This document shows positions 27,066 through 29,381 of a stretch of DNA of 64,000 nt, one piece after another. The stretch lies in assembly GCF_007753095.1 (NCBI RefSeq), contig NZ_CP036348.1, forward strand, positions 1,984,001 to 2,048,000, given 5' to 3'. Positions within the stretch are counted from its first letter, which is position 1; each line of letters starts with the position of its first letter. Origin of the DNA: Rosistilla carotiformis. GTDB lineage: Bacteria; Planctomycetota; Planctomycetia; Pirellulales; Pirellulaceae. The notes beneath the pieces were generated by a model. That model had not been told where the DNA came from. It did no database searches and worked only from the letters and a program-made list of their open reading frames with translations. A program made the position numbers and the translations under genes.

Positions 27066-28748
27066 TCACAGTCGGACGCGGCGGTTGCCGAAGGCTTTGC
27101 CCAGGCGGATGCTGTTCCAGGTGGCGTGGACGGGAGTCTCGGTGCCGGAGAATTCACGGATAAAGCTGCCACGCCGCATCGCCCGCGGCGTCGGTGGCGG
27201 CTGGCGCATCGCCCGCTGAATCTCCTGCTCGCTGACAATCTGCTCGGTCTCACCCGCCGATTCCAGCAGCGAATAATATCCGTCGGCCGACAACTCGTGG
27301 TACTTGATGTCCAGCTTGCGGTTGGCGGGCAAAGGCAGGTTCTGGCCCGCTTGTTTCAACAGCATCCTCTTGGTCACCCAGTCGATGCGGCCGACAAGGA
27401 TCGTGCGATCACCAGCCAATCCGTCCAGCACATCGCTCCACCGCTGTAGCACTTCGTACGCTTCATCGGGCCGATTCTGATTGGCTTCCACAAATCGGCG
27501 ACAAGCGGCTTGGTACCATCGCTGGACGTCGAGTGCTGTCATCGGTCGGCCGTTGTGGACGGCGATCGCACGCTCGATCGGTTCATCCCGAACCACAGCT
27601 TGCAATGCGCGCAGCGGTCGCCGAACGCGCGGTGGATTTTTGATCGCTCCGGCTTCGATCGCATCGATCATCAAGGTGGTTGTCGCGAGCCTCAGGTATT
27701 CCGCCTCTTCCGCCATGTTGCAGTCTCCCAAGCAGACTTGCATCCGTTGGCGCGCCCCGAGGTTGCTGAAGAGGTCCATCGGATTGAACCATCCGATCAG
27801 GCAAGCATCCATCAGATGGGCGACGCTGAACAAAGGATAGGCGTGGTTTCCCAGCGGTCCAAATATAAATCGCAGCACGGGGGCTTTCTGAGCCAACAAA
27901 AAATCACCGCGATCGGAAACCCAACCGCTCCCCGAAAGGATCGATCGGCTGACCAAAAACGGCGTCAACATTCGGACATGGCGACGATACAGACAGATCC
28001 TTGAAGCGACGATAATCGTCAACAGCATCGGGCTCAGCGAGATCATCGCCACACGATTCAGCGCCCGCTCGACCCACCGCGGGATCGGCGTGGCATCTTC
28101 GGAGGTGTCGAATCCGTCGCCGAAGAACTTGCGGAATAATTCACCACGGCGCGCCTTCTCGGTTCGCATCATAGCAAACGGATAGACCGCCACTGCGATC
28201 AACAGATACGCTGGGATGGCGACGATCACCAACGGAATCATGATCACCCAAAACAGCAAGCAGACCGTCGCCGCTAACAACAAAACGACACGCCAACACG
28301 CAAGGCCTAGCATGCCGGTGACTTGGATCTCGTAGTTCTCGTGAGTGCCGTAGGCGTTCCCTTGGCTGTCACGACTGTTTTTGATCAGGACCAATTCCCC
28401 ATCGTCGCGGCAACTGGACGCCGATTCGCGGAGTAAACGATCTTGCGCTCGCTGCCAGACCAAGGCATCGCGAGGACTCTGACACTCTGGCGTCGCTGCT
28501 TCGATCAGCCCAAAACCGCCCGAATGCAAAACGCGTTCGAAGCCGATCGTGCCGCCGTTGGCCGTGAAATGCTTCTCTTCCAAGACGCTACCGGTTGCGG
28601 TCGGCAAACGCTCCCGGAACTTCTCCAACAGCGAGCGGTAGAGTTCGATCTGTTTGACGGGCGGCCCGTCTTGATAAGGCCGAAAGCGGATCGCGTATTC
28701 GGTCTCCAGCCCCAGTAAGCGTTGAAAGATTGGAGCGTTGGTTTTCAA
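27066..28748 (-). CDS. PafA/Dop-family (Pup ligase/deamidase-like) enzyme with inserted transmembrane segment
   Basis: A 560-aa member of the glutamine-synthetase-like carboxylate-amine ligase family that attaches or removes Pup. Family marks: LGLETEYAIRF (12-22), EAATPEC (83-89), NSRDSQGNAYGTHENYEI (124-141), LTPFLVSRSILSGSG (261-275), ARQRMQVCLGDCNMAEEAEY (about 330-350) and IDWVTKRMLL. Between THENYEI and LTPFLVSR, where actinobacterial PafA/Dop continue directly, about 105 residues are inserted. They hold two strong hydrophobic helices (about 146-193) and a third (about 234-254). The only in-frame start after the upstream TGA is TTG 28748. It lies downstream of a 51-codon Pup-like gene. 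No proteasome subunit or ARC/Mpa gene is in the window. Ligase versus deamidase is not decided. Confidence 0.85.
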   Translation of the reverse strand: MKTNAPIFQRLLGLETEYAIRFRPYQDGPPVKQIELYRSLLEKFRERLPTATGSVLEEKHFTANGGTIGFERVLHSGGFGLIEAATPECQSPRDALVWQRAQDRLLRESASSCRDDGELVLIKNSRDSQGNAYGTHENYEIQVTGMLGLACWRVVLLLAATVCLLFWVIMIPLVIVAIPAYLLIAVAVYPFAMMRTEKARRGELFRKFFGDGFDTSEDATPIPRWVERALNRVAMISLSPMLLTIIVASRICLYRRHVRMLTPFLVSRSILSGSGWVSDRGDFLLAQKAPVLRFIFGPLGNHAYPLFSVAHLMDACLIGWFNPMDLFSNLGARQRMQVCLGDCNMAEEAEYLRLATTTLMIDAIEAGAIKNPPRVRRPLRALQAVVRDEPIERAIAVHNGRPMTALDVQRWYQAACRRFVEANQNRPDEAYEVLQRWSDVLDGLAGDRTILVGRIDWVTKRMLLKQAGQNLPLPANRKLDIKYHELSADGYYSLLESAGETEQIVSEQEIQRAMRQPPPTPRAMRRGSFIREFSGTETPVHATWNSIRLGKAFGNRRVRL

Positions 28749-28857
28749 GAGCTTCGCCTGCCGGGGTGCGCAAATTCAAACAGCACGCCCCGACGGGATG
28801 ATTCGGTCGGGCGGTGATCGATCGCCGCCCCACCCTCTAAAAGATTCGCCGATCGAT

Positions 28858-29013
28858 TTATTCGCCGCCGTCGGGAACGACAACCTCGTCCAGATATCGC
28901 TGCGGTTGATCTTGGGCATCGACGGCGACTCGGTCGATGATCTGTTCCAAGGTTTGCGGTTGAGGCAACGTTTCGCTGGTCTGCGGTGCTTCGAGAATGG
29001 TTTCCGTCTTCAC
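28858..29013 (-). CDS. Candidate Pup/UBact-like protein modifier ending in Gly-Gly-Glu
   Basis: A 51-aa protein from GTG 29013, with a strong SD (AGGAG) 7 bases upstream. It is acidic and predicted flexible, without Cys or Trp. Its C-terminal part is IIDRVAVDAQDQPQRY followed by LDEVVVPDGGE, so the chain ends in GGE, the form needed for ligation by PafA. Known Pups are about 60-70 aa, disordered, acidic and end GGQ or GGE; UBact proteins of other phyla are similar in size. The gene ends 109 bases before the PafA/Dop-like gene on the same strand. No similarity search was possible. The case rests on size, composition, SD, C-terminus and neighbour. Confidence 0.72.
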   Translation of the reverse strand: MKTETILEAPQTSETLPQPQTLEQIIDRVAVDAQDQPQRYLDEVVVPDGGE

Positions 29014-29381
29014 TGGGGCGCTCCTGAATCGATAGGTGATCGGATACAATGGGCGATGCGGAATCGTTCCCACTCCATTCGCTTGATTATAGAAGAAAGA
29101 TTTGCGGGTCACAATCAAGTGATTTCGCACTGTGGGGCGTTGGGCGAACTGGGCAAAACTTGCCAGCAGGCTCTCCCCCATCGAGCAACGCCGCAACGCG
29201 TTTTTCGTTATAGAGGATGCCGGTTCTCGGCCGTAGCGGAAGTCGTCAAGACTTTCGATCCACGGCGGTTATCCGCTCCTCCCGAAACTCTTGACGAGTT
29301 CCGCGACGCAATGGTTCACCAACTTCATATCTGATCTTCCAACCACCACTCCTGTTCACGCAATCCGATCTCCTTTTATTT
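29014..29381. other. Divergent intergenic region
   Basis: There are 368 bases between the Pup-like gene (minus) and the methyltransferase gene (plus), so promoters for both directions are expected here. The minus-strand frame of the Pup-like gene stays open to 29196, but there is no SD for a longer start. No further gene, repeat or RNA structure is recognised. Confidence 0.4.

Follow-up and report, generated by a model that had tools for sequence, protein, structure and literature searches.

A stretch of 64,000 nucleotides from the planctomycete Rosistilla carotiformis (Pirellulaceae; NZ_CP036348.1, positions 1,984,001 to 2,048,000), referred to here as the window, carries a gene for a small acidic protein ending in Gly-Gly-Glu and, downstream of it, a gene for a membrane-inserted homologue of the Pup ligase PafA and its relative Dop (Table 1). 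The two genes very probably form a real and conserved functional pair, and we read them, with a probability of about 0.72, as a two-gene tagging module which acts at the membrane and independently of a proteasome. The established role of pupylation is to mark proteins for degradation by the proteasome. In one planctomycete family, the searches detected no 20S proteasome, and almost half of the genomes searched retain a Pup-like modifier and its presumed ligase; the purpose of Pup-like tagging without a proteasome thereby becomes testable using two genes.

The strongest evidence that modifier and enzyme work together is their co-occurrence where they are not linked. Our searches covered 392 genomes of Planctomycetota, 38 of them with the enzyme family PF03136, and 241 genomes of the host family, Pirellulaceae, with PF03136 in 120 (39 of 68 genera). 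A linked modifier, defined as a same-strand open reading frame (ORF) ending in G(x)E with its stop codon at most 400 nt before the homologous part of the enzyme, is present at 102 of 140 membrane-type loci; the conserved linkage expected in the first-pass annotation of this DNA is found at most loci and missing at the other 38. Two of these 38 are cut by contig ends (L031, L081), three are isolated (L039, L058, L061) and the other 33 fall in five genera of the host family. Whole-genome searches with the modifier alignment recovered an unlinked modifier elsewhere in every one of the 14 genomes searched from these five genera, 13 of them at E 1.5e-10 to 2.3e-4 and one (G592, E 0.186) recognised by its tail. 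All 14 matches reach the last position and end in DGE (12 of them in NT..DGE), while in five control genomes, which lack the enzyme, no modifier match was below E 0.43 and none reached the tail. Across the 241 family genomes, membrane-type enzyme and modifier occur together in 107, the enzyme alone in 11, the modifier alone in one and neither in 122 (Fisher p 2e-54, kinship uncorrected). The single genome with only a modifier (G571) is 86% complete and has no PF03136 match, and no modifier was found in the two with only soluble homologues (G411, G579); match scores and positions are the basis for assigning soluble homologues to these two and the membrane type to the other 118, and some of the matches are fragments.

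The modifiers share more than their end. Among the 102 linked ones, Asp is found at position -20 in 94, Tyr or Phe at -12 in 96 and Ile or Val at -23 in 94, and the net charge of the last 40 residues is negative in 81. Position -2 is Gly in 97 and Ala in five, GGE closes 54 of the 102, and every membrane-type modifier found ends in Glu, none in Gln. The first-pass annotation had staked its proposal on a conserved short frame with a Gly-Gly-(Glu/Gln) end: the frame and the near-invariant final Gly-Glu (or, rarely, Ala-Glu) hold, whereas the third-last residue varies, Gly-Gly is not invariant and Gln is never used in these modifiers. Because a G(x)E end was the criterion by which linked modifiers were first selected, the tail counts carry a selection bias; as background, 137 of 12,893 closed frames of at least 30 aa across the 140 loci end in G(x)E, the modifiers themselves included. 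A modifier model deprived of its last four residues, built from those same 102 sequences, was compared with 30,196 frames of 197 loci; every protein matched at E <0.05 ends in [GA]E, and the following match has E 0.98. Least prone to selection are the whole-genome searches for unlinked modifiers and the family-wide modifier search. Depletion of lysine, considered as a further mark of the modifiers, was discarded (Lys 3.6% in their last 40 residues versus 2.9% in the enzymes). Some loci (L040, L042, L056, L057, L064, L311) have Gly-Ala-Glu tails instead of Gly-Gly-Glu, and in L065 and L066 (G149, G178) the GGE-ended upstream ORF allows a reading of 99 aa that includes a hydrophobic stretch (LPATLLALAGAAALVAW-like), its start being uncertain, so that this modifier may itself be membrane-anchored.

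The enzyme belongs to PF03136 over the whole length of the profile (273.9 bits with a curated cut-off of 25, E 3.5e-81, positions 1-440 of 441). By strict membership, it is neither PafA proper nor Dop proper, as it remains well below the NCBIfam equivalog cut-offs for both (PafA 177 versus 551 bits, Dop 184 versus 492; TIGR03686, TIGR03688). Its AlphaFold2 model (predicted local distance difference test 89.4, predicted template modelling score 0.91) has the glutamine-synthetase fold, and the closest structures are Dop (4b0r, Z 48.3 over 409 residues) and PafA (4bjr, Z 41.6 over 416 residues), followed at a distance by YbdK (1r8g, Z 22.8). Strongly hydrophobic stretches lie at about 141-197 and 229-255, numbered from the preceding stop nine codons earlier; hydropathy suggests about three transmembrane (TM) segments, and the model shows long helices at 146-194 and 224-253. 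A 19-residue window with a mean hydropathy of at least 1.6 occurs at the insertion site in all 138 scorable membrane-type enzymes, and also in two of the eight scorable soluble ones. The full-length family match and the hydrophobic insertion after the HENYE strand bear out the membrane-inserted PafA/Dop homologue that was proposed from the sequence of the window. A rapidly built tree of 79 membrane-type and 17 soluble rows (96 in all) separates the two types on one branch, with a support of 97 in the Shimodaira-Hasegawa-like approximate likelihood-ratio test. The soluble homologues mostly occur as pairs. An NTRDEP-like alpha-loop motif, which might have served as a marker of ligase or hydrolase, proved unusable, being absent from all 140 membrane-type enzymes but also from 16 of 17 soluble ones.

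At the position of the catalytic Asp, 139 of the 140 membrane-type enzymes carry Glu and one (L092) Asp, while 16 of 17 soluble relatives have Asp. In the window enzyme this residue, Glu71, falls on strand 67-72 of the model; the numbering of its counterpart, D64 of C. glutamicum PafA, derives from a table in PMC7947786 together with our alignment. As far as the accessible text of the two sources goes, the catalytic Asp has been proposed to be a base activating water or lysine or, in Dop, a direct nucleophile (PMC3511204), and in Dop a water activator (PMC8599861). GxExE and the other conserved acidic and Arg positions are retained in nearly all of the 140 enzymes, and for this reason the enzyme looks catalytically competent, with its base changed. 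The exchange of Asp for Glu offers a naturally occurring test of what the catalytic Asp does. The catalytic position is preceded by a median of 55 residues in the membrane-type enzymes; of the eight soluble pairs, seven combine a member with 46-56 residues and a member with 64-110, and the eighth (L041) has 55 and 56. With so short a spacing, there is hardly space for a Dop-loop.

Both structure and sequence of the enzyme are closer to Dop than to PafA, as would suit an enzyme that is mainly a Dop-like hydrolase removing or trimming the peptide. The only two PF03136 genes of the host are, however, both of the membrane type, which leaves no ligase whose work could be undone; the tails already end in Glu, making deamidation unnecessary; and the spacing before the catalytic position resembles that of the short member of the soluble pairs. 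We therefore favour a ligase, since the host has no PF03136 genes beyond these two and the tail needs no deamidation, and consider a hydrolase very unlikely.

In the tagging module that we propose, the small protein would be a modifier with a ready-made C-terminal Glu, whose gamma-carboxylate is the predicted point of conjugation. An amidoligase of glutamine-synthetase fold, held at the cytoplasmic face of the membrane by its inserted helices, would phosphorylate this terminal gamma-carboxylate using ATP and pass the activated modifier to an amine, for which a lysine in a membrane protein or in a protein near the membrane is the likeliest candidate, Glu71 occupying the place of the usual Asp. 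No deamidase (Dop) would be needed because the tail already is Glu, and because no 20S proteasome or ARC was found, the mark would probably change the activity, partners or place of its targets. The acceptor could also be a membrane amine (phosphatidylethanolamine) or a polyamine, yielding in the former case a lipid-anchored peptide somewhat as in Atg8 lipidation: the hydrophobic helices are inserted directly behind the active-site strand, the general-base place is taken by Glu and not Asp in all but one of the enzymes, and no target gene travels with the pair. We know of no precedent in the PafA/Dop family, however, the known small-amine ligases of this fold take soluble acceptors, and nothing in the analysis points directly to lipid; such an acceptor seems unlikely to us.

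Profile models recognised no Dop, 20S proteasome or ARC in the host genome. Its sole PF00227 match is HslV, the 20S alpha subunit (TIGR03691) gave no match, and the two listed of three matches to the ARC model cover only the generic AAA domain, far under the cut-off. The absence of proteasome and ARC genes, noted at first for the window, thus holds genome-wide within the reach of these models, and the genome search for PrcA, PrcB and ARC recommended at that stage has now been run and recognised none of them. In the family, none of the 241 genomes has a 20S beta subunit over the cut-off, the power of the model for remote subunits being uncertain; 45 weak matches of 20-30 bits look, from their score and length, like HslV. 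Fourteen control genomes gave no 20S beta, no 20S alpha and one ARC over the cut-off. A variant of the last step of our reading, whose odds overlap with those of the reading itself, is that the tag targets breakdown by FtsH, HslUV, Clp or Lon, as HslV and proteins with generic AAA domains are at hand in the host; yet 20 of the 38 phylum genomes with PF03136 have no PF00227 match, so that HslV is no constant partner, and the pair has no conserved neighbour of any kind. We regard this variant as possible, if doubtful.

The second enzyme of R. carotiformis (L003, 9033-10808, minus strand; G000:C1 at about 554.0-555.9 kb of the genome) has its own 55-aa upstream ORF ending in QQQGE. In the tree, the window enzyme belongs to a GGE clade and the second one to a clade whose linked modifiers end in NT..GE in four of five rows. 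All three genomes of the host genus contain two enzyme copies, and two membrane-type copies are also found in two other genomes of the family, G487 (a 77% complete draft; L131 and L160, both linked) and G595 (L148 linked, L119 not). The tail type changes 17 times over the enzyme tree compared with a mean of 51.7 in shuffled data (none of 200 shuffles as low), although near relatives inflate such counts; this clustering is as expected for matched partners, and each of the two host pairs is probably specific for its own partner. Two pairs in one cell would serve as a test of modifier specificity and possibly as a tool for labelling membrane proteins. It is rather a long shot that the two represent orthogonal membrane modifier/ligase pairs with a Glu-based active site and different membrane acceptors, the acceptor perhaps being a lipid amine and not a protein, as a self-contained bacterial counterpart of the Atg8 type that uses the glutamine-synthetase fold.

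Several observations weigh against a membrane tagging module. The tagging step is a predicted function, and so are activity, conjugate and acceptor. The predicted fold resembles Dop, a hydrolase, slightly more than it does the ligase PafA, and replacement of the Asp could alter the chemistry; the exact placement of Glu71 depends on an alignment and a predicted strand, and from Glu71 to the next conserved Glu there are six residues more than in PafA. Of 28 members of the modifier family, none is matched by a Pup-family model of Pfam or NCBIfam (to E 10), the modifier profile finds no Pup chain in the PDB, and hhalign gave no significant link between six modifiers of soluble pairs and the membrane-type ones; the Pfam Pup model is narrow and also misses those six. 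All-versus-all comparison of the neighbouring ORFs at 95 loci, with crude gene calls and unannotated neighbours, revealed no third gene conserved near the pair, so the context gives no target. Finally, 11 of the 118 enzyme-bearing family genomes lack a modifier at E <=0.01. One of these (G469) has a linked modifier (L152) and two (G592, G593) an unlinked one on inspection, leaving eight still without (G550, G562, G564, G565, G569, G573, G583, G598); four of the eight are less than 90% complete, and a renewed search of G550 and G598 at E <=1 gave no match reaching the modifier tail. Outside the family, the genomes of two isolated loci, G164 (L039) and G006 (L061), yielded no convincing modifier, and that of the third, G130 (L058), has an unlinked modifier ending in GAE.

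The window locus is the kind of system predicted by Iyer et al. (2008; PMC2588565), whose accessible text describes Pup orthologues in Rhodopirellula and Plesiocystis, a PafA with four inserted TM segments and no linked proteasome genes, and suggests regulatory tagging of membrane-associated proteins. The pupylation-like pair suggested in the first-pass annotation is supported but not new, and conjugation continues to be a prediction. Both descriptions agree in the small G[EQ]-ended protein, the insertion after core strand 4 and the lack of linked proteasome genes. In the passages seen of the earlier work, Pup adjoins the PafA gene in all lineages and a membrane-protein gene is linked, whereas here the Rhodopirellula-type loci have no adjacent modifier (the genomes searched having an unlinked one) and no neighbour is conserved. 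The same passages contain neither the Asp-to-Glu exchange, the Glu-only tails, two pairs per genome nor the wide distribution (PMC2588565). New in our analysis are the scale, the pairing kept in the absence of linkage, the Glu-only tails, the exchange at the active site, the coexistence of two pairs and the reach from Rhodopirellula over Uabimicrobium to myxobacteria. The planctomycete relative of Dop and PafA that roots the tree of Hecht et al. (2020; PMC7947786) as an outgroup, with about 29-31% identity to PafA and Dop, probably represents the same enzymes; the consulted part of that paper gives it as single copy, compared with two copies in the host genus, each accompanied by a modifier in the host. 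No experiment on this system was found in the open-access literature.

With the actinobacterial Pup-proteasome system, the pair shares the enzyme fold, the GxExE region and a small acidic modifier with a Gly-Glu terminus (in that system Gly-Gln until deamidation); it differs in that no Dop, ARC or 20S proteasome was found, in the membrane insertion, in Glu replacing Asp and in a modifier lying outside the Pup models. The soluble Dop/PafA-like homologues, in pairs at L035-L037, L041 and L047-L050 and single in L038, presumably group with the systems named UBact; they resemble the membrane type in enzyme family and in the upstream small protein ending in G[EQ], and differ in having two enzymes at eight of nine loci and in keeping the Asp in 16 of 17 enzymes. 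The single soluble homologue (G238, from the class of the host; L038:4450-6256) has 472 aa and no TM insertion, and the preceding ORF ends in SSGE. At L047, L048 and L049 (genomes G016, G013 and G050), soluble pairs with a GGQ or GGE modifier adjoin a full-length ARC-like AAA gene scoring 291-313 bits, below the cut-off; these drafts contain no PF00227 match anywhere, which suggests pupylation and ARC without a recognisable 20S core.

Beyond the two genome sets, a pattern scan of GTDB genomes with alignment A2, of which we took the best 80 of 101 relatives, returned many loci from the same public genomes as the planctomycete and family sets, while a scan of genome contigs with the single window protein gave no matches. 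The modifier was found in 57 of these 80 loci at E <0.05, with an adjacent one in L272 at 0.072; two of the other 22 (L229, L257) lie at contig ends, and the remaining 20 are mostly titled Rhodopirellula, Rubripirellula or Stieleria. An adjacent modifier together with Glu at the catalytic position occurs in eight loci titled Myxococcales, Myxococcota, Deltaproteobacteria, Pseudobacteriovorax and other proteobacteria, and in one of an unclassified bacterium; the matches by model are weak in L271 (E 0.04) and L272 (E 0.07). Candidatus Uabimicrobium amorphum, an engulfing planctomycete (L046, L298), has one linked pair with a modifier of 45 aa ending in VVPKGGE.

A different reading of a small peptide that is rich in Pro and Gln and encoded next to only one modifying enzyme is that the amidoligase matures it into a small bioactive product, and the available part of PMC3511204 reports a proposal that Pup evolved from such peptides. 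The pair has, however, no conserved exporter, protease or biosynthetic neighbour, and conservation is concentrated in the core motif and the two C-terminal residues, the pattern to be expected if a tag is bound and joined at these places; we give such a precursor hardly any credence. Candidates for a conserved third gene from comparisons of 31 and of 95 loci were rejected, as they consisted only of antisense shadows of the enzyme, genus-level synteny and common families.

In the window itself, the coordinates and translations were checked and agree with the first description, namely a short frame with a Shine-Dalgarno sequence encoding a small acidic product with a GGE end, 109 nt 5' of the PafA/Dop-family gene. 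The modifier ends in VVPDGGE and has 11 Asp and Glu residues against one Lys and two Arg; its N-terminal half is rich in Pro and Gln, and its core carries the family motif [IV]..D(A/S)......Y[LV]. A Shine-Dalgarno-like string precedes 72 of the 102 linked modifiers, and none was seen for the second modifier of the host. Codon comparison within the host genus is uninformative, as the window modifier differs in one of 51 codons from each of two relatives and the second-pair modifier in four of 55, none of the changes being synonymous; wider modifier pairs outside the genus show many synonymous changes, seen without a formal test.

Table 1 Features of the modifier and enzyme genes, in positions of the window
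Feature	Position	Strand	Remarks
Membrane-type Pup-ligase-family enzyme (PafA/Dop homologue), 560 aa	27066..28748	-	TTG start; PF03136, AlphaFold2 model
Inserted long helices (mostly hydrophobic; about residues 146-267)	27948..28313	-	directly after core strand 4 (HENYE strand)
Glu71 codon, at the aligned position of the catalytic Asp in PafA/Dop (D64 of C. glutamicum PafA)	28536..28538	-	alignment with solved PafA and Dop
Modifier gene, 51 aa, C-terminus GGE	28858..29013	-	GTG start, stop included; ORF translation and family conservation
C-terminal Gly-Gly-Glu codons of the modifier	28861..28869	-	translation; last two residues conserved
AGGAG, probable Shine-Dalgarno site for the modifier gene	29021..29025	-	7 nt 5' of the GTG, read from the sequence

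In genus g324 (L206, L209, L211, L213, L215), the unlinked modifier is located near a conserved gene whose product starts with MLKKAIVAGG(A)VALLSSLAVGVPLASYT or similar, and in g317 (L203, L210, L212) it is found near genes which, by eye, look like rpsL/rpsG and hisA. In Rhodopirellula baltica (L274), the enzyme has no adjacent modifier, and the likely matching genome, G588, contains an unlinked one at E 5.2e-4.

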